The notes under the pieces: model-generated
Databases searched by the model: none
Told to the model about the DNA's origin: nothing
Seen by the model: only the letters and a program-made list of their open reading frames with translations
Shown: positions 12,986-51,065 of the stretch, one piece after another
Layout of the letters: each line of letters starts with the position of its first letter
How positions within the stretch are numbered: the stretch's first letter is position 1
NCBI GenBank assembly: GCA_963575645.1
Contig: OY754469.1
Location: forward strand, 23,702,001 to 23,766,000
From: Xanthostigma xanthostigma
Taxonomy: Eukaryota; Arthropoda; Insecta; Raphidioptera; Raphidiidae
Length of the DNA: 64,000 bases
Direction of reading: 5' to 3'
Position numbers and translations under genes: made by a program

Positions 12986-14515
12986 AGAATAGACCAAATA
13001 ATTTAATTTATTACGATCGTTTCGACCTAGATCAGGTCATCTTCAGATACTGGAGATATGAAGAATTGTCGTTTAAAATATAAGTACAGTAAAAATTACA
13101 AAGAGATTTTACAATAACATCCTCAACGATGAAATTAATCCTATCTCGAAGAGGACGTATTTAAAGTTCATAATAAATTTTTTAAAAGTAAACTGATGTA
13201 ATCAATCTGACATATAGTACAGTCAATCTGGCGAAAAAAAAATCATTTCGTATCAAAACCATACAAAAAGGTGAAACTTGGTGAGTCGTTAGAGAATGAT
13301 GAAAAAAAGGTTACCTGGCAATGGCCACCTGGTACCTGTTCAAATAGTCAAAAAAAACTCAAAAATATTTTGAAATGCATTTTTCTCGAAAACTATGCAT
13401 TTTACAGAAAAATTTATTGAACAAAAAATGTAGAGGGTATCGTTATCTACAATTAATGTCATTGGTGCTATGTTGTACAACAAAAAATGTGCGCAGTAGG
13501 TGGCGCTAAAGTGCCAAAAAAAGTGTTTTTCCACTTTTTTGCCCTGAAATTTTCATTTTTCAGTTACGATTCAAATGGAAAAATTGTTCCTTTTTATTTT
13601 ATAAACAACTTTTATTTCAACATTTTTTTCATACAACTTACTTTTCATACAACTTATTTTCACTTCAACAAGCTGCAGCTCTGAAACGGTAAGTTGTACG
13701 AAAAAAATGTTGAAATAAAAGTTGTTTATAAAATAAAAAGGAACAATTTTTCCATTTGAATCGTAACTGAAAAATGAAAATTTCAGGGCAAAAAAGTGGA
13801 AAAACACTTTTTTTGGCACTTTAGCGCCACCTACTGCGCACATTTTTTGTTGTAAAACATAGCACCAATGACATTAATTGTAGATAACGATGCCCTCTAC
13901 ATTTTTTGTTCAATAAATTTTTCTGTAAAATGCATAGTTTTCGAGAAAAATGCATTTCAAAATATTTTTGAGTTTTTTTTGACTATTTGAACAGGTATTT
14001 GAACAGGTACCAGGTGGCCATTGCCAGGCAACCTTTTTTTTCATCATTCTCTAACGACTCACCAAGTTTCACCTTTTTGTGTGGTTTTGTTGAGGTTTTT
14101 GCCAGATTGACTGTACTAATAGCTTATTTAAGTACATCACTGTTTTAATTTAACCTTCTGTTTTGTAATCACTGATTTTATCAAAGTTAAGTATTTGATC
14201 AATGGCTGCCACAACCCACAAATTATTATTTAAGAACATCATATTTGCTTCGTGATTTATATTTCGGAGAAAATATTGAATAAGGATTAAGTTTTATCAT
14301 TTGATATATGACTTTGATAAACACAAATTGAAGTTTTTTAGTTACACATTAATTTTTAAGTAAGTATATCACATAATTTTGTATTAAGTAATTTCTCTTT
14401 GTAATTTTTACTGTATTTATATTTAAACGACAATTCTTTTATATTTCCAGTATGTGAAGATCTAAAGTCGAACCGGTCGTAATAAATTAAATTTTTTTTT
14501 GGGATTTGGTCTATT
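12986..14515. repeat. older inverted-repeat element (arms 12986-13109 / 14392-14515) holding a nested palindrome
   Basis: The left arm contains 'gaatagaccaaataattt', 'cgtttcgacctagatcagg' and 'catcttcagatactgg'. The right arm has the inverse, 'ccagtatgtgaagatct ... gtcgtaataaattaaatt ... ggtctattc', with clear but imperfect pairing over about 124 nt. The left arm on the minus strand reads CTGAAGA, then a perfect 5-bp hairpin (GACCT/AGGTC), then GAAACG. The Tc1-like palindrome at 13220-14113 is inserted between the arms, which dates the outer element as older. Confidence 0.7.
13220..14113. mobile_element. Tc1/mariner-like giant palindrome
   Basis: The ends CAGTCAATCTGGC and GCCAGATTGACTG are flanked by TA on each side (13218-13219, 14114-14115), the Tc1/mariner target signature. 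Arms 13220-13641 and 13690-14113 pair over about 420 nt with an estimated 96-97 percent identity around a 48-nt loop. The right arm has one small tandem duplication (tgttcaaatac). Both arms encode the same meaningless frame (MCAVGGAKVPKKVFF). No transposase is present. A transcript would fold into a very long hairpin. Confidence 0.8.
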
Positions 14516-24467: not shown

Positions 24468-25543
24468 ACGCTTTATATTAGTTTGGGTTGTAACTATGTA
24501 TGTATGTACTAACGGAATCTTTGAGCATAATTTTCACCAATTTCCCGAAGTCTGATTAATTTGAAACTTTGCATACGTATCAAGGACCGATGACAATGCA
24601 ATAATTTGATAACAGTTTCCCATTATCCTTATTAGGACCCCCAGGATTAATTAGTTTGGGTTGTAACTATGTATGTATGTCCGTAACGGAATCTTTGAGC
24701 ATAATTTTCACCAATTTCCCGAAGTCTGATTAATTTGAAACTTTGCATACGTATCAAGGACCGATGACAATGCAATAATTTGATAACAGTTTCCCATTAT
24801 CCTTATTAGGACCCCCAGGATTAATAATTAAACGCTTTATATTAGTTTTTAATCCTGGGGGTCCTAATAAGGATAATGGGAAACTGTTATCAAATTATTG
24901 CATTGTCATCGGTCCTTGATACGTATGCAAAGTTTCAAATTAATCAGACTTCGGGAAATTGGTGAAAATTATGCTCAAAGATTCCGTTACGGACATACAT
25001 ACATAGTTATAATTAATAATAATAACTATGTATGTATGTCCGTAACGGAATCTTTGAGCATAATTTTCACCAATTTCCCGAAGTCTGATTAATTTGAAAC
25101 TTTGCATACGTATCAAGGACCGATGACAATGCAATAATTTGATAACAGTTTCCCATTATCCTTATTAGGACCCCCAGGACATTAATTCTGACCGATAAAA
25201 AATGTTGCAAAAAAATTTTAGTAAACATGAGTTTATTTAATAAATTACAAAACTTTAAAAAATAACAAATTTGAATAATTTAAAAAAAAAAAAAATTAAA
25301 GCATTCCAATTAAAATACGAATATAATTCTATATTAAACGCTTTATATTAGTTTGGGTTGTAACTAACTATGTATGTATGTAACTAACTATGTATGTATG
25401 TCCGTAACGGAATCTTTGAGCATAATTTTCACCAATTTCCCGAAGTCTGATTAATTTGAAACTTTGCATACGTATCAAGGACCGATGACAATGCAATAAT
25501 TTGATAACAGTTTCCCATTATCCTTATTAGGACCCCCAGGATT
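24468..25543. repeat. five copies of a ~165-bp unit, one inverted
   Basis: The unit runs from 'gtttgggttgtaactatgta' through 'ggaatctttgagcataattt', 'tttgcatacgtatcaaggac' and 'gatgacaatgcaataattt' to 'gacccccaggattaat'. Copies: 24481-24649 (+), 24654-24822 (+), 24846-25012 (-), 25021-25180 (+, left end shortened), 25351-25541 (+, with a duplicated 'ctaactatgtatgtatgt'). The lead-in 'aaacgctttatattagttt' precedes copies 1, 3 and 5. The copies are close to identical, so the array is young or homogenised. The facing pair (copies 3 and 4) makes a ~160-bp hairpin and mirror-image frames. Confidence 0.85.
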
Positions 25544-25586
25544 AATAAATTCTTTTATAGATCCTCAAACTAAAAAGTGAAAAATA

Positions 25587-29703: not shown

Positions 29704-29850
29704 CAAGAGCCCGCCAACCCATCACGAAATTATTTTAAAAGTTAAAACCTTTCATTTAATTGTTATTTAAACGATTATGAGGTAGAAAATCATATTTCGA
29801 GAGTCAACTTTTGACGCGGTGGGCGGGGGCGTCGGCCCATCGTAACCCGC
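29704..29850. repeat. repeat fragment starting CAAGAGCCCGC
   Basis: The opening 'caagagcccgccaaccc' shares CAAGAGCCCGC with both ends of the giant palindrome at 41911-43385. The right part is 'gacgcggtgggcgggggcg'. The 5'-truncated LINE begins immediately after, so the LINE probably inserted into or next to this element. Confidence 0.5.
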
Positions 29851-30761
29851 CAACCTACCGAGTTTGAGCACGTTGAATTGTGTGCTATCAAATACTTCCT
29901 AAAATATTATATACAGTTGACGGAAAAAAAATATAATGCGGTCATATACTCGGATTCAATTAGCGCACTACAGTCTATCGGAAACTATTACCCAACCAAC
30001 CCCCACGTTGTAGAAATACATCAGTGCCTTCACAAATTACAACAAAACAATAAAAAAGTAACGTTTGTTTGGATCCCATCCCACATACAAATAACCGGCA
30101 ATGAATTAGTAGACAAAAAAGCAAAGGAAGCAGCCAGGTCTAATTTTGAAACTCATGAAAATGATATTACTTTTAGCGATTTAAAGTGCTACACCAACCA
30201 AAATATAAAAAATAAGTGGAAAATAATATGGGAGCGAACAGAAGACAACAAATTAAAGAAAATAAAAAACTGTGTAGAAAGATGGAAATCTCCCGAAAAC
30301 TTAAACCGATGAGAGGAAATTGTACTAACAAGGTTAAGAATCGGACACACTCGACTCACACATTCTTACCTATTGGATCGCTCTCCTCCCCCGGAATGCG
30401 AGATCTGCAACGTTCCTCTGACGGTAGAACACCTTTTGGTGACCTGCCCACTATACGATGTCCAACGGATGGATACTGAACTTCCACAGGATCTGGAAAC
30501 AATTTTAAATAGTTGGCAAAACCAAAAGTGCACATCCCGCAAGTTTTCCACTGTATGATAAAAAAATAACAATTAAAAAATATTTTTAATAAATTTAACA
30601 AGATTTAAAAATTTAAAGAAATAAATAATTAAAAATTGAAAAAATATTTTTTTTTAAGTTTGCAAAAATAAAAAAAATTAAGAACTATACATAATATAAT
30701 ATATAATTAATATCAAGTGGAATAAAATAAAACAAAATAAAAAGAAAAAAAAAAAAAAAAT
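29851..30761 (+). mobile_element. LINE 3' end: RNase H domain, zinc knuckle and A-rich tail (I/R1-type)
   Basis: One continuous frame (about 29844-30558) starts TEFEHVELCAIKYFLKYY and reads RNase H motifs: IYSDSISALQSIG with the first catalytic Asp region, FVWIPSHIQITGNELVDKKA with the conserved His/Asp block, then RLRIGHTRLTHSYLL and the knuckle CEICNVPLTVEHLLVTC. RNase H followed by a CCHC knuckle is typical of I/R1/LOA-group LINEs. The only in-frame stop is a TGA at 30310-30312, in a context (NLNR-stop-EEIVLTRLRIGH) that suggests a CGA-to-TGA change. The frame ends with TGA at 30556-30558. The tail is AT-rich and ends in an A run (about 30747-30761). Endonuclease and reverse transcriptase are missing (5' truncation). 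A fairly young dead copy. Confidence 0.8.
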
Positions 30762-34714: not shown

Positions 34715-35899
34715 ATATTCAAAGCAATGGCACGTCAATCCGGTGTCGGAGAGGCAACCGGATGGCGAGTGGTAATCTGGGCCTATGAGTGGTGCAGAAC
34801 CCCCTGGTAGCGGCCAAAGTGACCCCAAATGGACGGGGGCGGCGATATGGGGGTGGGGCAAAATCGAAAAATGTTTGAAAAGGCAACCGGATAAAAATGC
34901 GGTTGCATTGAAGGAAATACCCTAATTATATAATAAATTTTTTTTGCCATCCGAAACACGCGGGCCGTTTTAAAAAAAAAACTGAAAAGGCAACCGCTTC
35001 AAAATTAGTGAGCATACTTATTGACACCACCAAACGTTGGAAAAAAATTTCCATCCGATCCTGATGGGCAGTTTCGGAGAAACAACCCCTCAAAGTCACA
35101 GAAAAACCCTTTTTTTCGATTTTTTCAACAATAAGTAAAAAAAACACACTAAAAATTGTTCAAATCGGATGGCATTCGAAATTTATACTGTCCTAAGTAC
35201 AAATAATAGTGTGTATCAATGCCATCCGATTTTGATTAAATTTACCCCTATTTAGCCAACCCATAAAACTCAATAACAAGAAAAATAATGCCATACGCTG
35301 CATAAAATTGTTATTTTCATGAGTTTTGGGGGTGGCTAAATAGGGGTAAATTTAATCGAAATCGGATGGCATTGATACACACTGTTATTTGTACTTAGGA
35401 CAGTATAAATTTCGAATGCCATCCGATTTGAACAATTTTTAGTGTGTTTTTTTTACTTATTGTTGAAAAAATCGAAAAAAAGGGTTTTTCGGCGACTTTG
35501 AGGGGTTGTTTCTCCGAAACTGCCCATCAGGATCGGATGGCAATTTTTTTCCAACGTTTGGTGGTGTCAATAAGTATGCTCACTAATTTTGAGCGGTTGC
35601 CTTTTCAGTTTTTTTTTTATTTTTTTTTTATTCGCTAGTGCAAAAACGGCCCGCGTGTTTCGGATGGCAAAAAAAATTTATTATATAATTAGGGTATTTC
35701 CTTCAATGCAACCGCATTTTTATCCGGTTGCCTTTTCAAACATTTTTCGATTATGCCCCACCCCCATATCGCCGCCCCCGTCCATTTGGGGTCACTTTGG
35801 CCGCTACCAGGGGGTTCTGTACCACTCATAGGCCCAGATTACCACTCGCCATCCGGTTGCCTCTCCGACACCGGATTGACGTGCCATTGCTTTGAATAT
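34715..35899. mobile_element. giant foldback element, CATCCG word-repeat type (1.2 kb)
   Basis: Arms of about 570 nt pair from the ends (aaagcaatggcacgtcaatc and its inverse) to a ~30-nt centre near 35305. By eye the arms are about 98 percent identical; the main difference is an extra ~20-nt AT-rich piece in the right arm near 35610-35640. The hexamer CATCCG or its inverse occurs about ten times, usually as GCCATCCGA/TCGGATGGC, together with GGCAACCGG/GGTTGCCTTTT words. The two arms encode the same mirror-image frame (MFFLLIVEKIEKKGF). There is no transposase. Target duplications are not clear. Confidence 0.8.
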
Positions 35900-37984: not shown

Positions 37985-38250
37985 TATTTGTTAAAAAAAA
38001 ACATAATAGAAGCTCTTATGGTATCGGTCAGTCCTTTCACCCGTCCGTCTGTTATGTAAATATACACCAATTATGATGAAATTTGATATACCTACGGACG
38101 TAGATTGATAATCCATAAAACAGAAATGATGAGATTTTTGGAAACATAATTTTTAAAATTTATTTTTTATGGGAATTTTTTTATAAATACGTCATAATAT
38201 GAACACTACGAAACCCTGTCATGCGTTTGGCCGCTTTTTTCTTCAAAATA
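37985..38250 (+). repeat. lepidopteran 'gtccgtctgt ... gaaccctgtcatgcg' repeat
   Basis: 'acccgtccgtctgttatgta', 'atgatgaaatttgatatacc', 'cagaaatgatgagattttt' and 'gaaaccctgtcatgcgtttg' followed by 'gccgcttttttc' match the copy at 63020-63510 in order. This is the dispersed repeat that usually ends 'acttggccggttttt' in moths and butterflies. Confidence 0.65.
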
Positions 38251-38796
38251 TCACCTAAATATTTATAATTTGTATAAATATATAACCGTGCGAGTGCCAA
38301 CGCACTTTTATTTCATCATAAAAAACTTTCTATTTCTATTGAAATGTATCATTTGACAGTTAATAATTTTTATTTATTATTTTCGGATATCCAGTTTCGC
38401 TATTTTTCCAACGTGCCAGAAAGGCATTTCTTATAATAAACATGTAAGTATTGTCTTTAAATTATAATCGTTTTATTTATTGCATTATATACCGACGACG
38501 TCAATAAAACATGGTTGTTGGTAGGACTGGAAGCAAGAAATTAATTTTTTTGCGGTATTGTAAGAAGCGCAATGACCGTCAGTTGTTATTATTACACATA
38601 CATATGAACTAATCTATACATGAACACGATTAACGAAACATAATATTACGTGTATACAGGCTTGCTTTGATCAACCGTAATACTCGTACATAGCAAATTC
38701 AGTGTTAACATTAATAGTTGCGAACGCGAACACTAAGAAAACTTCATGAATTTGATTTGACAATTGTTTTTTTTGCCTGATAGTCTACTCGTCTGT
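38251..38796. other. AT-rich spacer
   Basis: A 51-nt segment between 'cggatatccag' and '|gtaagtatt' (about 38396-38446) has splice-like borders but no recognisable peptide; I do not call it an exon. Nothing else seen. Confidence 0.35.
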
Positions 38797-39370
38797 ACAC
38801 TAGACTAGTCGTTAAAAACTAATTTTTTTTTGGACGCCCGTTAAAGCTTTTGATGTAAAAATGCAAAGACAAGCTTTTAAAAAAAGTAAAACGTGCTGCA
38901 AAACGATCTAAGTTTTTTGGAAAAATCGTACTTTTTTCGAAATTTCTCACAACAAACATTATTATTACTATTTTGTAACCGAAATGTAATAAATTATTGA
39001 TAATTAAGTATGACTAATAATAATACTTTATTATTATCAACATTTATTTGAGTCATGGAATTAATGAATCTGCTCAAAATATTACCTTTGTTTCAAAATA
39101 AAATTTATAATTTTAAATCTCCTGTAATTTTTATCATCTAGACAACATAAAAAAATTTTCTTTCTTTTTCTTACTTTATTTTGGACACGAAATTGTTTGT
39201 ATTTCAGAAAAAAAATGATATTTGTTGTGAAAAATTTCGAAAAAAAATGAACTTAGATCGTTTTGCGGCACGTGTTATTCTTTTTAAAGCTTGTCTTTGC
39301 CTTTTTACATCAAATGGAAGCTTTTTAGGGGGCGTCGAAAAAATTTAATCTTTAACAACCAGTCTAGTGT
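38797..39370. mobile_element. TIR element with ~165-nt arms
   Basis: Left end 'acactagactagtcgttaa' and right end 'ttaacaaccagtctagtgt' are inverted. Pairing continues through 'gatgtaaaaatgcaaagaca', 'agctttaaaaa', 'gcaaaacgatctaag' and 'cgaaatttctcacaacaaa' for about 165 nt per arm at an estimated 85-90 percent. The loop is AT-rich and unique. No coding capacity; superfamily undetermined. Confidence 0.75.
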
Positions 39371-41910
39371 CCAGCACGACCAGCAACTTTTGATGCGTGT
39401 TCCTGTAGACATTTTCCAATTTTCAAGTATTGAATTTGTAGCATCACATCTCTAGCAGACTAGATCGGTCCAGCACGGTCGTTGAAGATTGCAGGTGCGG
39501 GTCTGCTGTGCTGAATAAGTGTACGTGGTCTTTTAATCTATAGAATGAAAAAAATGTGAACTGCGTGTGAAAATAAAATACTGACTAGGTATTGATTTTT
39601 TTTCTTGATAATTTCTTTTATGGCATTAAGAAAATTGTGGTGAACCTTGAAATATTTTAACACTCATCGATTAGTTTGTAATTGTTAGAATTAGTTCAGT
39701 ATTCAGTACCCAATTGTAACAAAATTTTGGCTGTTATTCAAGAAAGTCGTTGTTGATCTTTTCTTTCAAATTTTAAACCAGACTGAAAATTCGATCGTTC
39801 TATTAATAACAATTTATTTAATTTTTTGAATTGTTCAAGGTGACTGTTCACTCAGGTAGTAAAACATTCTGTCGGAAAACTAATGTCAAAGACATTTTAC
39901 TACTGATTTTATTAGCTGTGATTAAGAATTACGCTTCACAAAATTTTTCATGTTGATTAAAACTATCAATAAACAGTTATTTTGTAAGATATTTGTCAAT
40001 ATTTCTTTACAGCACGACGGGAAATCAAATTAACATTTTAAAGTTTTTTCTCCGCAAATATATGTAAAAATAAAGAAACTCATTAGCTTGTTCAACAATT
40101 GTTTTAAATTATATTTTTGTTTGTACAATTTGGGTAAAGAAAGCGTAATTTTTATCTTTTTAGTGTAGAATAATTTTGTATTTGAGCCTAAATTACAGGG
40201 AAAGCGCTTTTAAGTCACTACTTTGAAAAAGCTTTAGTCATTATTTGAGCATAAAAATAAATGCGTAAAGAATTTTAGTGATTCTCAGGAACACTATAAA
40301 AAAGTTTTTAATAGGTACTATAACCACTATAAATTTTGTAGTAAAATCAAACGATGAATAAGGGAAAAACTTTGTAAAACTATGTATTATGGATAACATT
40401 AGATATTATGCGGATACACCTTGTATACATTCTTGCTTGTTAAACATATGACGTCCATTGAAGACAGTTGAAGGCTATTGAACACCTCTGTTTATTATGA
40501 ACAAACAAGTACATGTTTTACCTTTGTGGGACTGGGAAAACTATACTGATTTAAACAAAGTTTAATTTTATATTAAAAGTAAAATACATTCAGTTTTGAA
40601 GTGAAACCTTCTTTAAAAACGGAGGTAACCCCGTTTCCTTATGTTACGAAATTTGTCACAAAGGAGAAGAGAGAGAATTGTACTATTAGTGACCCTATAA
40701 ATTTAGTAATTTAATTTTCACTCGATAAATACACTTTTCTGCATAATATTTTTATATGTCGAATTAACAAAGAGACCTAACAACCAAGCTGGAGTTTCTT
40801 TTGACATTTTTGGAAAACAGAAACCATTCGATAATGAATCTTATCTATTGTCGGAAATTTTATTTTTTTGTTATTTCGAGACATTCACAAAATACTTGTA
40901 AGCCTTGCATAACAGTGTTTTAATTTTAACGGTAGCTGCACATTGCAGAGACAAGGCTCATGATATATAGTAGTTCGTTTGTGTTTATTTTACACTATTT
41001 TAGTTATTTTCATAATATGATGAGATAAAAGACATTTCATTTTAGCCATGAATTTCTAAGGCGACAAAATTGCGCGGGTTCCGGGCTCTTTTTCAGATAA
41101 TCCGCCGTCAAGAAAGTGTGTAAGAATTTAGTGAGCTAAATACAGAATAATTATTCTTTTTTTTTGTATATACTTATTAGTTGTTGACAATTTTGAAATA
41201 ATTTTACCACTGATTTTCACCAAAGTTGGTGAAGGTTTGGATTTTTAAATTTAGGTATTGGATTTTTGAAAAATGCGTCAAAAATGATTCATTAACTCTC
41301 AACACATTTTCCGAAAATCTCCTGTTACCTTGCTTTGCCCATATTTGTCGTAATTTGTTTAGCGCCTAAACTATATCTTGTAATTCTAAGACACAAAATA
41401 GTGGTTATTATGGAAAAGTAATTTTCACTAATTTTTAGATTGAAGACAATGTTGAAACCCATCCTTTCTTCTAGATGTATGTAAGTCTAACGGGTCTTCC
41501 ACTTCACATAAACGTAGTGTGCCATTGCTGTTAGTATATGAACTAAACTCTGCGGTCAGCCTTGATTCACCAATCACCTGAACAGTGTGTCGTCGGATGT
41601 CGACTCATCATATAAAAATACCGCAACAATGGATTGTTGACCAGCGGATAGTAACCTATAGAAATACCACATTGAAAATTACTTCCAGTGCTATAGACAA
41701 AGACCGATGCGTAAATTTTAAGGAATTATGTACCGTCTTAATTCTAAGATAGTTATTGAAGAATTGATTACCCTCATGAGGATAATAAGTATTGTATTAT
41801 TTGGAACAATTACGTGCTAAATCCAATCTGTTATTGATGATGTTTCATGTCTCTGGGGTACAATATTCTGTTTGTAGGATATGCTTTACAATAGTCCAAA
41901 CTATATAGAA
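39371..41910. other. long AT-rich stretch without recognised features
   Basis: No frame above about 60 codons on either strand, no tRNA boxes, no inverted repeat of note. The phrase 'gcagaataattttg'-like AT text dominates. I see nothing to annotate. Confidence 0.45.
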
Positions 41911-43385
41911 CAAGAGCCCGCGGCAGCCAGACCTTCGTCATTTTATAAAAGCTGAAAGTTTTTCTATGGATGTCTCCAATACAGGTAAGAATGATCCCCA
42001 TCCATGAAACCTGAGTAGTGGTGGCTTTGGCAGGTAACAGGTATTAAAGGTGTACAAAATTCCATCTCAAATTCGTCATTTTATAAAACTCAATTTTTTA
42101 ATATTTTGTTCGTAACAATATTAAAAATCGCGTCGCTCATTGCCAGACACTTAGTATGGTTCCAACCCCCTGCCAGACACCCTTAAACTATCATAATTTG
42201 TATAATTATATTTACGTTATTTTATAAAAGCTGAATTTTATATATATTGTTTGGAGAACTATTAAATAATGTTTCATTAGTAGCCAGACAGTTTCGAGGG
42301 TTCTATCATCCTGCCAGACGCATTAAAGTGTACAATTTTCAAATCGTTTTTGCTTTATAACTTTGAAACGGCTCATGAGATTTTACTCAAATTTGGTACG
42401 TTGGCATAGCTTTATTGGGCAATAAAACCCATATCATAATAATGATGAATATCATTCCATGGGCGTAGAACTTGATTTTTTCGATAAATAAACATCTAAA
42501 ACTTCTACGCCAATGGAAAAAAATCAGTTTGAGTATGAAATCTGGATCACGAGACTCATTTACTACAAAAAAGGTAGGTACTCTTGATAAAATTCGATTA
42601 CTCTCATAGTTTCGACAAAATTTTAATTCTAGTAATTTAAGGCATATATGCTCTAAAGTCTAAATTACTAGAATTAAAATTTTGTCGAAACTATGAGAGT
42701 AATCGAATTTTATCAAGAGTACCTTTTTTGTAGTAAATGAGTCTCGTGATCCAGATTTCATACTCAAACTGATTTTTTTCCATTGGCGTAGAAGTTTTAG
42801 ATGTTTATTTATCGAAAAAATCAAGTTCTACGCCCATGGAATGATATTCATCATTATTATGATATGGGTTTTATTGCCCAATAAAGCTATGCCAACGTAC
42901 CAAATTTGAGTAAAATCTCATGAGCCGTTTCAAAGTTATAAAGCAAAAACGATTTGAAAATTGTACACTTTAATGCGTCTGGCAGGATGATAGAACCCTC
43001 GAAACTGTCTGGCTACTAATGAAACATTATTTAATAGTTCTCCAAACAATATATATAAAATTCAGCTTTTATAAAATAACGTAAATATAATTGTACTAAT
43101 TATGATAGTTTAAGGGTGTCTGGCAGGGGGTTGGAACCATACTAAGTGTCTGGCAATGAGCGACGCGATTTTTAATATTGTTACGAACGAAATATTAAAA
43201 AATTGAGTTTTATAAAATGACGAATTTGAGATGGAATTTTGTACACCTTTAATACCTGTTACCTGCCAAAGCCACCACTACTCAGGTTTCATGGATGGAG
43301 ATCATTCTTACCTGTATTGGAGACATCCATAGAAAAACTTTCAGCTTTTATAAAATGACGAAGGTCTGGCTGCCGCGGGCTCTTG
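41911..43385. mobile_element. giant near-perfect foldback element (1.48 kb), GCCAGAC word
   Basis: Arms 41911-42639 and 42661-43385 are inverted copies, estimated at about 99 percent by eye: four single differences in a 300-nt comparison. The loop is 21 nt. The ends read CAAGAGCCCGCGGCAGCCAGACC. The word GCCAGAC occurs five times in each arm and 'ttttataaaa' (often + tgacg) three times. No frame of note. A read-through transcript would form a hairpin of over 700 bp. Target duplications are not evident. CAAGAGCCCGC is shared with the fragment at 29704. Confidence 0.85.
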
Positions 43386-44044
43386 GGCTAATACATTTAG
43401 ACGTTATGTTATCCTGATAACATATCCAAAGCTATATATTATTATGTATTTTTAACAGAGGAGCTTTATTCCACTTATGGCCATATTCATCAAACACTAT
43501 TAAAGATAAAAATTACTAATCTTCTTACAAATTTATTCATTAAGTTAAAATTTATTTCCAAATCATCAAGTTATATTATCATATATATATTTTTTTTGTT
43601 ACAGACTTAAAACAACTTGAAATCTGTCGACCAGTTGGATAAGCACGCTCTACAGAACAGGTCAGTTATTTTAATAATCAAATTAATTTTTACGTATAAC
43701 TATTTCAAAATATATTTCCGTTTTATATGCGGTAGTCGTTTATTATGAGCGGTTTTTCTTTGAGCCCACGCTGTTTCGAATTATACTCGGTCATTAAATT
43801 GACCTGATATTGATAAACACCCTGAAATATTATTTATTTGAGTTTAGTACGGCTGTTATTAATTTTTAGTAGGTATCTAATAATGTTTTTTTGGAGAATG
43901 CAGCCAATTTTTATTTTATTTTCATATATTAAAAAGAAATTGAAAGTATAGTGGCGTGTGTGAGTCGGATAACATGCAAATATTTTGAGCCGGAACGAGA
44001 TTACCTCCTCCCCCCGTTTTCGAGGATGCTGAACACGGTGACCG
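43386..44044. other. AT-rich spacer
   Basis: Contains the short repeat 'ttatggccatattcatcaaa' also seen near 3047. Nothing else recognised. Confidence 0.4.
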
Positions 44045-44180
44045 CGGAAGTTACCCTTTTTTGATGGTCCGGCTCACTTCAGCCTGCCAACCATTGTATT
44101 TTTCTTTTAAGCAGGGTTTTAATTTCCCAAATATCCATTCGGATATTCATAGGGTTTTAGTGTTATGGGCTCTCGTGCTA
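44045..44180 (-). repeat. second copy of the 31.7-kb repeat
   Basis: 'cggaagttaccctttttt', 'cagcctgccaaccattgta' and 'ttcttttaagcagggtttt' align in direct orientation with 31671-31820, with several substitutions and a short deletion. Only the 3' part is present. Confidence 0.7.
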
Positions 44181-44655
44181 TCGCGTTCACATATTTTACA
44201 TCTTACCAAAATTTTGTTTCAATTCGCTTAGCTGTTTAATCTATATCGTGTTCACCGACAAACAGATTTTTTCAAAAAAATATGTTTTTTGACCCGGGAG
44301 ATTTTCAAACGAAAAAATATTTTAAAAGGTTGACTTGAATTAATACACTTCTTCACTTTTGGAGTTGGAGCGGTAAAAATTAATCTATCGTGTTATTTTA
44401 GAAAATCAACTAGTGACAATTCGCTGACCAGACATAATAACTCTGTACAAAGTAGACGTGTCAAATCTGTCGTTCCGTTTATCACTTCCGTTCATAGATG
44501 TCGACATTAATGCATACATTTGTATACCTAGTCACGGTGTGGGTATCTCGCGTGTCCAATCGCGGTGACCCATGAAATGTTCCCTGACACTTGCTTTAAT
44601 ATCTACTATGGCTTTACGCTCGTAATAAAGCTGTTGCCATGTGAAGTTTGTTTCA
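44181..44655. other. non-coding spacer
   Basis: No feature seen apart from generic AT-rich sequence. Confidence 0.4.
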
Positions 44656-44883
44656 TTACGCTTGAGCTCTGGCATAAATGACCGATTTCTGGAGAAATGT
44701 TGTCAGTTTAGTTAGTACTAAAACGTTGAGATACGTTCGTTTTAATATGTTTTTAATGTTATTAAGGTTAAACATCAAGAGTCTAAAAGTTCTATCAAAA
44801 TATGACAACACGGTATATCTCCAAATCAACTTGGCATCTGTATATCCGTTTTTTACAGCTTTTTTTCTCAAAGACATAGACAA
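44656..44883 (-). pseudogene. protein-like relic, unassigned
   Basis: A 75-codon minus frame (SLRKKAVKNGYTDAKLIWRY ... LLMFNLNNIKNILKRTYLNV) has a coding-like residue mix and mixed charged/hydrophobic periodicity. It resembles the style of LINE- or transposon-encoded C-termini, but I cannot place it in a family and no second motif lies nearby. The opposite strand also has a 69-codon frame. Chance is possible. Confidence 0.2.
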
Positions 44884-47104
44884 TTGAAATTCGGTATAAT
44901 TACAGAAAGTAGTGGCCTAGTCACAGACGTCTTCCTAACGATCTCATAAAATATAACCCAGAAAATTATAAAAAAATCAAATTTTTTCATTGTTAATTAA
45001 GAATAATGGCGATGAGGTTTACATTGAATGAACATTATTATCAGCATTGCATTGCACAAGACACTTTTTGATGTATTAAAAAAAACTAGAAAATTAATGA
45101 ATAATGACGAAAGTTCGTCGTGCATCCGATCGTTTATCTTTTGTGTAATTCAGACATTGAATATATTGACTCGTAAATGACATTAAAATTTGTAATCAGA
45201 TTTTTCTAATATTTTTCGCATACGTTATCCTTAGATTTCAGAGATTGGCAAAGTTGACACACACCCCTTCCCTAACATTCTTAAAAACAGAGTAGTATAA
45301 TTAATGTGCATTGGTTTCACACACATAACATTGGGTCCGCCGGCGCTGCTCATCGTGCGATATGTCACAGATCGTGATTTATTTATTTAATTTATCTTTC
45401 AATATGTGCCAGCGATGAGTCCGCGGATCCTCTCACTTATACTCATGGACTCCTAGGAGTTCACAGACTGCAGTTTAAAAAGCAATATTATAGTGGTTTA
45501 AAAATAAAAAAACGTGTGAAAATACGTCATGGTCCATCTAATCGGCGGCCATAGAGCACTCTTATTTGATCAGAAGGGGTCAATTGGGAAATAGATTTTA
45601 AACACAAGTAATTCTTAGCCTATATATTTTGTCTGCGAAATTCGTCTCCTATATATATATATTTTTTTTATTTATACCAACTTATCGGTGTTGATAAATA
45701 TGCTTGATGTTTTATCTTTAAATATTTTATTTCCATGACAGTGGATGAAATGTCTTTATGAAATCGATAAACATGTAAGAACATTAAAATTTTCGCCAAA
45801 ATTGAACATGCTGTACATTTGTCACAATTATTACCGAGGAGCTATTTAAAGAACAATCTTTTGTATGATGCGTCGTGACAAGGACCCGGTGACGTGGTCA
45901 CTAAAATGATGATGGGAGCATAGCGACCTTGTGTTCTGAAGATGTGTTCTTCTTTTCTAGACTTGCATTAATGTTAAGACCTTGCATATAGACGTAATAC
46001 CTTATACCATTTATAGCTAACACGCATGCAATTAGTGTATATCTAATGTGCACATAAACATGTAATTGCTACGCTATCAAAAACATTTGTTTAAAAGTAA
46101 TGCATTTGGGAATTAATCTTTCTTTGAAACGCTAAAAGTTTAAATATAGATAATTACATATGCTTTTTCTTGATTTATTATTTCACGGTTTGACCTGTCG
46201 TAGTCGATTGTACAAATGAGCAAAAAAATTCTCTACTTTTTCAAATTCCATGCCTAAAGCATAGAACCCTATTTATTAACTATTCTGTCTATTTGATCAC
46301 TTACCTCAAGTAGGTAGATGGTAAAAAAATTACCTTTTTGAAAATAGCCATGTAGAATATATAATAGACCAATTGCATTCCCGATCGCATTCGAAAATGT
46401 TTACCAACACGAAATTAATTGGTTAATTTATGTAGTCTTCACGATTACAATTAACAAGTCAGTTTAACCAAAACTGATCCAGTGGTTTCTAAGATATGCT
46501 GCAGGTATGGAATTCCCTTGGACTATACATACTAAGGAAATTGCATTCCAATCCCTTTACTATTATAGTTTTTTTAAATTGTTGGTAATGCTGCTCAGTC
46601 AAAGTGCACAACCTTTCAGTTTCAAGACTGGAAGAGCGCTAGTTATTTGGTAAATCTGAACTAAGAGGAATGAGTACGTATACTCCAACGGAATCCCTTG
46701 TGCACAAACGAAATTGGCATTTAAACTGATTTTTCTAAAACGCTAGATAATTATTTGAACACGGATTAATAACTTTCCATATTAAAAAATGTTAAAATAC
46801 GATTTCTATATAAATTCAAATTGAAACAATGATAAAACAGGATGGAGATGATTCAATTAATGACCTCAGAACTTGTTCCGATACAGATTTTGGAAATGCA
46901 CCCGGTTGATGCTGACATTTGTTGAACTATGATTTGTTTTTCAATTATTTTCTCGTAATCGATTGTTCAAACTGTACATGTGACACAATTTCGTGATTTA
47001 TTACATTTCAAAAAAATATTTTTATTGTTCCATCAACGTTTAAAAAATGAATGTATAGGATTAGAATTAGAGAAGTAGGGACCAAAAGGTAAATTGCAAA
47101 CAAT
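44884..47104. other. long AT-rich stretch
   Basis: No gene, tRNA or repeat boundary recognised. There are (TA)n-like runs near 45650-45665. Nothing else to annotate. Confidence 0.45.
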
Positions 47105-48590: not shown

Positions 48591-49245
48591 GTCGTACATT
48601 ATTATCGACTATGCAGATGAGTATTTTGACAAAAAAAATGCATAGTGGGATTTGACGTGTAGGCGGAACTTATTTATGGCGTTGTCAAATGTAGTTTACG
48701 TTTTTGTACGTAAATGCGGTTTGTATGGTACGAGTTGTGCATTATGGAAAAAAATGAGATTTAACAGTCACACGAGTCATGAGAGAGTTACGTTCGAGAA
48801 ACATACTTTCTCCATTTTTTGCACATACTTCCTATTAAATAACTGATTTTCACATCATAAGTATTTTACAATATATTTGCAATCTATTTGTTTACGAAAA
48901 CTAGGCTTACTTTGCTATCTCTGTTTCTCTATATTGTTAAATTTATGATAACTGACAAATCGCTTTTAAAAATTAGGTACCGTTGAATTGGTATAAGATA
49001 ACAATTATTTTGTACTGCCCTATCACTGGCATTGCCAATTTGGACAGGAAACATTACATTATTAAGCATTATATTTATAACATAATTGGTATTATATGTC
49101 TCAAAAGATAATAAACAAATAAAAATTTGCTTTTGATCATGTCACTAATGTCATTTTACTATCGCTGTACATTGTACAGGCATCAAAACTAGCTTATTTA
49201 TAGGGTTGTGCGCAAAAATGTCTTTTCTTATCAATCTAATTATAG
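48591..49245. other. non-coding stretch
   Basis: Holds the unassigned 64-codon plus frame 48652-48846 with two Cys and no signature; otherwise AT-rich and featureless. Confidence 0.35.
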
Positions 49246-49248
49246 TTA

Positions 49249-50257
49249 GGGCCGCGGTGACAAAAGTGCCTTGCAACTCCCAAACGGATGAGAAGCACGT
49301 TTTTGTATAGTTCGAGTGTCGTTCTCGAAATCCGTGTTGTCGAGTAGGGGTCTGGCGTTCGGCGTTGAGCGGCTATAGTATTTTTTCCGAATTTTGCCCA
49401 GCGGTTCCAAAAATCATTTCCCAAACGGATGAAAATTACTGGAGGACATCTACGCAAACCCCCAATTACCGGAAAAATATTTTCATCCGATTTGATCCTT
49501 GCCGTTGCCTGCAGTACAATTAAATGGACCCAGACACCGAAATGAAAAAAATCATCAGCCGCATGCATGCAACCGGACTGATATCAATGGTTATTATTTA
49601 TGTTATTAGAAAAAAAAGTTTTCATCCAAAATGCGCCTGGCTAAACTATGCCTTTCTACATTAAAGATCCTGCAGTTTCCCGTGATAATGAATATATCGG
49701 AGCATTATTATGGATGATCTGGACTTGACCGCAACAAATTTGGATGAAAATAATTTTTCGATTATCTGTAGGTGTCAAAGAACCTGTGGGCAAATTTTCA
49801 TCCATTTTGGAATTACTTTATCAAATTTGGCCCATTTAAATTTTGGAAAATTGTTACAAAGCGATCGCGATACATAGAAAAAAAAAATTTTTTTACATAT
49901 TCTCAGACACGAACTATATCTCCCTGCCAAATTTCAAGTTCAAATGAGGAAATTTTTTTCTCCCCCTTTTTCCATTTTTTTTAGAGCTTCTGGAAGAGCT
50001 CTTTGCAAATATCAAATCGGATGAAAATATTTTTCCGGTAATTGGGGGTTTGCGTAGATGCCCTCCAGTAATTTTCATCCGTTTGTGAAATGATTTTTGG
50101 AACCGCTGGGCAAAATTCGGAAAAAATACTATAGCCGCACAACGCCGAACGCCAGACCCCTACTCGACAACACGGATTTCGAGAACGACACTCGAACTAT
50201 ACAAAAACGTGCTTCTCATCAATTTGGGAGTTGCAAGGCACTTTTGTCACCGCGGCC
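49249..50257. mobile_element. foldback element with TTA duplication, CGGATGAAAAT word (1.0 kb)
   Basis: Ends GGGCCGCGGTGACAAAAGTG and its inverse are flanked by TTA (49246-49248 and 50258-50260), as in PIF/Harbinger elements. Arms 49249-49497 and 50013-50257 pair at an estimated 96-97 percent; the 515-nt middle is not paired. CATCCG or its inverse occurs five times and near variants (catcca, ggatga) four more, often as 'cggatgaaaat'. The arms carry mirror-image frames. No transposase is present. The CATCCGATTTG word is shared with the element at 34715-35899. Confidence 0.8.
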
Positions 50258-51065
50258 TTAACGATATGATTACTTTTTTGTTTTCAGTGCACTTCAGTTG
50301 ATTTTTCTCATCACCGATTTTGAAATTTTATAACGTAATTAAATATTTGATTTTTCGAGTTTTGTATTTTTACATGAGAAACGCAGTTTAGATAGTTTTG
50401 GCTACAAAATACAAAAATATAGTTCAGCACTATACAATATACGAAAGAATTTTTTTTTTTTTAGCTGTGCCCACAAATAGATTTTATTGAATATAAAAGT
50501 TTGAGAGTGCTACACAATCATTACATTTTTCTTTTAGCAGTTTTAAATATTTAAAAAAATGCATCAATGCTATTTATTATCCCCAGCAATTCTAAAAAGA
50601 AAACAAAATCAAAACTTTGCTATATTAAATTCATTGACATATTTTATCATGTTTTATAATGAAGGATAGAATATATTCCCACCGATTGAGAAACGATCGA
50701 TGATTTGAATTCAGGTCGAGGAAAGTAGAGTGTGTAGCAACATGCGTAAATAATTATCCTTAATAATTAATCGAAAATATCCAGCTTTCCCATAGGTGTC
50801 ACCCTTTGTAGATTTATTTATTAAGAGTTGATGTGTAAATTCGTTGAAAAATTGACTAAATTAATTTAAATGACATTTGTGAAAGGAATTTCAAATTGAC
50901 ATTTGAAAGGTTAATTAATTAAATCGTTTTATTTTAATAGGCAAGTATTAAAATTCAGATTTATTTCAATATCCGATTTCAAGAATTGGCAGTTTGTAAA
51001 TCGTACACATAATATAATAATCAAATAAATAAAAAAAAAAAAAATAAACCAAGTTTTTAAAATAA
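50258..51065. other. AT-rich spacer
   Basis: Contains T and A runs (about 50450-50462 and 51028-51046). Nothing recognised. Confidence 0.45.

Follow-up and report, generated by a model that had tools for sequence, protein, structure and literature searches.

A nearly loopless palindromic MITE of Xanthostigma xanthostigma: agreement between its arms and deletions ending near its centre

The 1485-bp inverted repeat found in the analysed stretch of Xanthostigma xanthostigma DNA (contig OY754469.1, positions 23,702,001 to 23,766,000; the whole 64,000 nucleotides are hereafter called the window) is a non-autonomous DNA transposon of the MITE/foldback class, as seen from its dispersed copies, inverted ends and duplication of fixed length. 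We consider it very probable that the family is a foldback-type cut-and-paste transposon, a nearly loopless palindromic MITE mobilised in trans, whose arms are homogenised against each other and whose copies decay by breakage near the centre. Dispersed insertions duplicating 3 bp, a clear empty site and non-coding arms were seen directly, as were mutations common to both arms, two orientations of the centre and deletion ends close to it. The object is ordinary in kind, a foldback-type MITE; the case for arm exchange and for decay from the centre outwards is unusually clear. The original prediction had described a hairpin, and the structure is real, but it is one copy of a dispersed transposon family and not solitary.

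Structure of the window copy and its insertion sites

A repeat search of the window confirmed the inverted repeat, with arms at 41906-42576 and 42720-43390 (671 nt, 99% complementary) and an inner pair at 42576-42639 and 42661-42724 (64 nt, 100% complementary, 21 nt between). The hairpin had been predicted essentially correctly in its coordinates, arm length, loop and identity (arms of 734 and 730 nt, about 99%, a 21-nt loop), and its ends, placed at 41911 and 43385, were about right in position but 5 bases short on each side, the true limits being 41906-43390. Exact alignment of the arms, set beforehand as a check with a limit of 95%, gave about 99% identity. When one half of this copy (L048) was aligned with the other, 10 substitutions were counted in 733 aligned positions, plus 8 gap columns; without the centre, the arms differed at 4 of 725 positions. 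The features are listed below.

41903..41905, no strand: left target-site duplication, ATA
41906..43390, no strand: whole element, 1485 bp, TAG...CTA
41906..42639, plus strand: left arm, 734 nt, end type TAGAAC
41909..41910, plus strand: terminal asymmetry, AA (CC at the other end)
41936..42235, plus strand: CGTCATTTTATAAAAGCTGAA-like motif, three spaced occurrences (starts 41936, 42074 and 42215)
42640..42660, no strand: 21-nt loop of the window copy
42661..43390, minus strand: right arm, 730 nt, end type TAGCCC
43391..43393, no strand: right target-site duplication, ATA
Element ends: TAGNNCAAGAGCCCGCGG

The commonest length of complete copies was 1474 bp. According to the repeat search, the CGTCATTTTATAAAAGCTGAA-like motifs are 21 nt long and spaced by 138 and 141, and a GCCAGAC motif was counted by eye five times in the left arm; both are possible candidate transposase binding sites. 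The loop holds an asymmetry of its own, AG at 42640-42641 and TC at 42652-42653 (GA on the opposite strand), flanking GCATATATGC. The added 21-nt loop was found in the window copy only, being absent in the other 10 complete copies aligned.

Relatives were sought in the 623 Mb (28 contigs) of the genome. A DNA search with the left arm returned at least 96 matching pieces from the best 40 of 449 candidates, and a pattern of the element end allowing up to 3 mismatches had 293 genome matches, with 0 for the reversed control. We fetched 40 loci from the best hits (one of them the window copy), 20 from the end pattern and 2 further ones. Among the 40 best-scoring loci, 11 were complete palindromes with flanks and variants of their own. 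Since the same element was found elsewhere many times with other flanks, a chance origin is excluded. A 22-base stretch of the element end had no exact counterpart in viral contigs.

Both ends were recognised in 44 of 62 loci (L009-L048 and L079-L100), with 4 substitutions and no gaps allowed; the remaining 18, in which one end was recognised, were excluded from the flank count. Identical 3-bp flanks were present in 41 of the 44 copies, and identical 4-bp flanks in none. The duplicated 3-mers were TTA in 14 copies, TAA in 10 and others in 17. These duplications support transposition, as had been envisaged when the element was proposed to be recently mobilised. The three misses were L023, L079 and L011; in the last, the script had halted short of a 7-base duplication, past which the flanks are the same by eye (TAA). 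Among the loci with one recognised end, L037 and L041 retain a few bases of the other, and L046 has its second end, one base shorter, with TAA flanking the copy at either side. Four empty-site comparisons were made. One was clear: the left flank of L019 contains the L093 site without the element, and TTA, present twice around the insertion, occurs there a single time. For L016, the site was found without interruption in L014, though with small differences; the comparisons for L096 and L014 were uninformative. TA, our first reading of the target duplication, was ruled out by the empty site and the flank comparison, the TA being internal to the element.

Beyond the common TAG, bases 4-5 of the two ends read AA/CC in 40 of 44 copies, AA/TC in 2, AA/CT in 1 (L011) and AC/AC in 1 (L091). 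By eye, the true end of L011 is CC and lies past its 7-base duplication. The two ends thus differ in 43 of 44 end pairs.

Agreement between arms and orientation of the centre

In the 11 complete palindromes, 40 of 42 listed polymorphic columns outside the centre were the same in both arms of every copy, among them variants confined to a single copy; the table leans to agreement because columns that deviate by one letter in one arm only are not entered. The mean arm difference was 0.66% within these copies and 1.78% between them. One palindrome, L020, carries a private 3-bp insertion in both arms. A full variant count was made on the 44 copies with both arms readable, out of 59 loci given. Of the 344 carrier cases of minor alleles, 203 had the allele in both arms and 141 in a single arm, while variants private to one copy (147) occupied both arms in 42 cases and one arm in 105. 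The private mutations common to both arms of a copy speak for the arm-to-arm conversion that had been suggested from the hairpin itself.

The arms of each copy were further compared with those of the others in the 41 copies that had 150 or more shared positions (3 fell short and were dropped). In all of these except L088 (40 of 41), the two arms of a copy differed less from each other than they did, on average, from other copies. Own arms were closer than the nearest other copy in 11 of 41 (15 counting ties), a small share because many copies are almost identical. The median end branch of the arm tree was 0.42% (44 copies); the family is young, in agreement with the proposal that the element is very recent. 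L088 (C2:28729166-28730643) is a complete palindrome whose arms are 2.8% apart; some of these differences match alleles of other copies, possibly owing to exchange between copies or alleles.

Differences that the arms do not share cluster within copies (p 0.0015 and 0.0032; 5 of 12 complete copies, with at least 4 differences, L088 excluded), as partial conversion tracts after insertion would give. The pooled own-arm difference was 0.62% in 15 complete copies, two of which bear a nested central insert, and 0.65% in 26 asymmetric or insert-bearing ones. As the two groups are alike, a longer loop has no visible effect, and most of the homogenisation may therefore predate or accompany insertion. 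Between the two symmetric outer units of L091, 1 of 425 positions is different, against 10 of 427 for the tandem neighbour; in this one copy, exchange thus seems to take place between mirror positions. L091 (C3:26855027-26856481) is an older relative; its TAGACC ends are symmetric, its 430-bp units lie in tandem, and its middle has matches at five genome places. A second pair of TAGACC ends lies at C5:8118362-8119832.

The centre is also asymmetric: the central GCATATATGC is bordered by AG in one arm and by GA in the other. A script run on 65 loci placed AG on the AA-end arm in 23 and on the CC-end arm in 18; 4 centres were symmetrical (L034, L040, L088 and L100), 2 were mutated on one side (L033 and L045) and 18 were unreadable. 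Hand assignment added L045 and L046 to the AA-end group and L033 to the CC-end group, and the resulting 25:19 was used in the tree. Both orientations were found, scattered over the arm tree, from which it follows that the centre was probably inverted repeatedly. On this tree, in which 1 of 41 inner branches is well supported, orientation required 12 changes compared with a mean of 14.5 after shuffling, 55 and 59 of 500 shuffles being as low. The asymmetry was kept in 44 of 48 classified centres; hence, like the terminal one, it is seldom evened out.

Deletions, inserts and the search for a transposase

The 40 best hits are biased to copies with a long arm, and for this reason deletions were counted only in 28 unranked copies, namely the end pairs on contigs C1-C4 with both ends exact among the matches listed, all 28 of which were fetched. 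Seven were complete palindromes, and four had inserts with both arms largely intact (L082, L089, L090 and L018). In 14 copies, one arm was complete or nearly so and the other was cut by a deletion that stops close to the centre, between 13 nt before and 76 nt beyond it; the shortened arm may be the AA-ended or the CC-ended one, as both occur. Two copies (L084 and L079) had a deletion across the centre, and the remaining one was L091. No deletion of more than 100 bp that spared the centre was seen in the other copies; small deletions inside an arm were present in L089 (about 71 bp) and L086 (about 24 bp). Decay of the palindrome had been anticipated, and in these relatives one arm is indeed partly gone, starting from the centre.

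Of 24 deletion junctions within the element, taken from ranked and unranked copies, 4 contained inserted bases, one of them 160. The other 20 had microhomology of at least 2 nt in 15 cases (mean 2.35), compared with 20% of 5000 random joins (mean 0.80); for L010 and L092, which are among these 20, the two-piece model is a poor fit. Tandem arm units were found in L091 and L104. As for the single-arm copy L024, its comparison with a related repeat in L051 is suggestive only: some 370 bp of flank may have been lost, or L051 may have received an insertion.

A 240-bp insert sits next to TA at the centre of L082, L089 and L090; by eye it has inverted ends of its own, and related sequence occurs at other genome places. 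We read it as a different MITE nested in the palindrome, which makes the loopless form the older state of that line. Because its translation resembled a transposase by eye, this 240-bp middle was also considered as the family's transposase and was rejected: Pfam gave nothing, and PDB only a match with E = 0.75. Inverted pairs of a fragment in the insert lie at C11:2812896-2813171, C7:30801479-30801964 and C2:32476239-32476811 and are possibly yet another palindromic family.

No stop-to-stop ORF of at least 120 aa overlaps the window copy. Two ORFs of 70 and 90 aa do, and the 90-aa one had no Pfam match (the 70-aa one lay outside the scan). No transposase was recognised by eye within the fetched end pairs. 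The longest end-paired copies fetched (L079, L099 and L100) were considered as autonomous elements and set aside, their inserts having no transposase recognisable by eye; end pairs that were not fetched were all shorter than 1.5 kb among the matches listed. L079 (C1:26361393-26367528) has a 3.4-kb insert, and adjoining ORFs resemble, by eye, a myotubularin-related host gene. The Harbinger DDE domain PF13359 had at least 150 hits in the genome, none near element ends among the matches listed when compared by eye. By hand count, 91 of the 150 matches listed for this domain are on C10, 89 of them in about 8.66-16.35 Mb, a span of less than 8 Mb. An autonomous copy may exist, with about 130 of the 293 ends outside the matches listed.

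A Pfam scan of 10 of the 97 window ORFs (at least 70 aa) gave a single match, RNase H at 29815-30309, and no host gene or intron around the element was recognised among those 10. Rfam had no family in window positions 38000-47000. No exact array of the telomere repeats TTAGG or TCAGG was found. A second, unrelated palindromic element occupies 34715-35899 of the window, with arms of about 580 nt; its family is large (at least 79 matches from the best 40 of 800 candidates scored), and many members are two-armed. More long inverted repeats, some overlapping one another, lie at 13333-13997, 24510-25548 and 49241-50266, with arms of 141-309 nt that are 96-100% complementary. Palindromic elements may be abundant in this genome.

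Mechanism, alternatives and known systems

From these results, the following course of events may be envisaged. Insertion would duplicate 3 bp, preferably TTA or TAA, with the transposase supplied in trans. The arms would then pair in register, be it by recombination of inverted arms or of sister chromatids or through a hairpin or cruciform, and conversion would copy mutations from arm to arm, an occasional crossover flipping the centre. The outermost 5 bp would remain unlike because homology stops there. Breakage close to the tip of the hairpin and rejoining of the ends by microhomology would delete one arm from the centre outwards and yield asymmetric or single-arm copies in which the perfect palindrome is lost.

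The most serious challenge to exchange between resident arms is that they are made identical only at transposition, with one arm copied from the other by fold-back while the excision gap is repaired, and divergence setting in after insertion. The similar own-arm difference of complete and other copies (0.62% and 0.65%), the 105 of 147 private variants confined to a single arm and the four symmetrical centres (L034, L040, L088 and L100, of 48 classified), which are expected of a fold-back copy, are all in its favour. Fold-back copying predicts symmetry, yet 44 of the 48 centres are asymmetric and 43 of 44 end pairs differ; moreover, the unshared differences are grouped in tracts. We regard this explanation as unlikely, albeit one to be taken seriously. 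It is very improbable that there was no homogenisation at all and that a few young master palindromes gave rise to copies too young for their arms to diverge. The median end branch of just 0.42% and the many near-identical copies agree with such a history, but 42 variants occur in both arms of a single copy and in no other fetched copy compared, the private 3-bp insertion of L020 is present in both arms, and independent identical mutation of both arms would be far too improbable for 42 cases.

Long-read assembly is known to be weak at palindromes, and fold-back reads might have produced an artefact. This is scarcely credible: complete palindromes make up 11 of the 40 best-scoring loci, and these differ in their flanks, have variants of their own and show both centre orientations; the matching 3-bp flanks of 41 of 44 copies also argue against it. 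Finally, the element could act as a hairpin-RNA locus, where readthrough from a host promoter would give long dsRNA and putative endogenous siRNAs silencing its relatives. The arms exceed 700 bp, and Dicer_dimer domain matches at three genome places (C13:16.86 Mb, C13:13.38 Mb and C1:26.11 Mb) make the siRNA idea possible. Judging from the DNA sequence, we nevertheless find such a role improbable: no host gene was recognised in the window among the 10 of 97 ORFs scanned, Rfam gave no family in 38000-47000, and transposition together with palindrome dynamics suffices to explain the structure. Caution is called for with hairpins of this kind in raw sequence, which may be transposons and not regulatory RNAs; the window has further long inverted repeats, and one of them is likewise a member of a large family.

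The preferred reading, a foldback-type MITE with arm homogenisation and decay near the centre, can be taken further. The element could be a self-correcting transposon, with arm exchange a regular part of its life cycle, the arms serving as mutual repair templates and the two-base asymmetries bounding the exchange. We hold this extension to be rather doubtful. If it is true, the family and its deletion series are a natural record of how eukaryotes handle long palindromes.

Among known superfamilies, Tc1/mariner elements duplicate TA, whereas the duplication here is 3 bp. The P superfamily, to which Galileo belongs, makes target duplications of 7-8 bp, and none of the 44 copies had a flank match over 4 bp or more. 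The element resembles PIF/Harbinger MITEs in its 3-bp TWA-type duplication (TTA or TAA in 24 of 41 copies, the other 17 having different 3-mers). It departs from them in that its ends start with TAG, from which typical Harbinger ends differ, and in its long arms, those of PIF/Harbinger MITEs being usually far shorter than 700 bp. No Harbinger transposase lies nearby among the matches listed.

A likeness to the Drosophila foldback-type elements Galileo and Tetris lies in the long inverted arms, the motifs repeated within them and the coding capacity, which is small or nil; the internal repeats of our family are the 21-nt motifs and the tandem units of L091 and L104. It differs from both in being nearly loopless and in having repeats of motif scale, except for those tandem arm units. 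For Tetris, the repeats cluster together in 2 of 3 complete elements and homogenisation was suggested, no autonomous copy was found, and the target duplication is 8-10 bp (PMC4079207), unlike the 3 bp of the present element. For Galileo, the authors propose that long TIRs attract recombination and conversion (PMC3573991).

The losses seen in this family also resemble those of palindromes in E. coli, yeast and mammals, in that they begin near the centre, remove one side and leave microhomology at the joins. In those organisms, palindrome instability takes the form of a break at the centre and asymmetric deletion, and long perfect palindromes have mostly been studied in constructs. Here, in contrast, the cases come from nature, as insertions of a single transposon with a known starting form, and with one palindrome spread over many sites, arm exchange, inversion of the centre and centre-out deletion become countable in nature.
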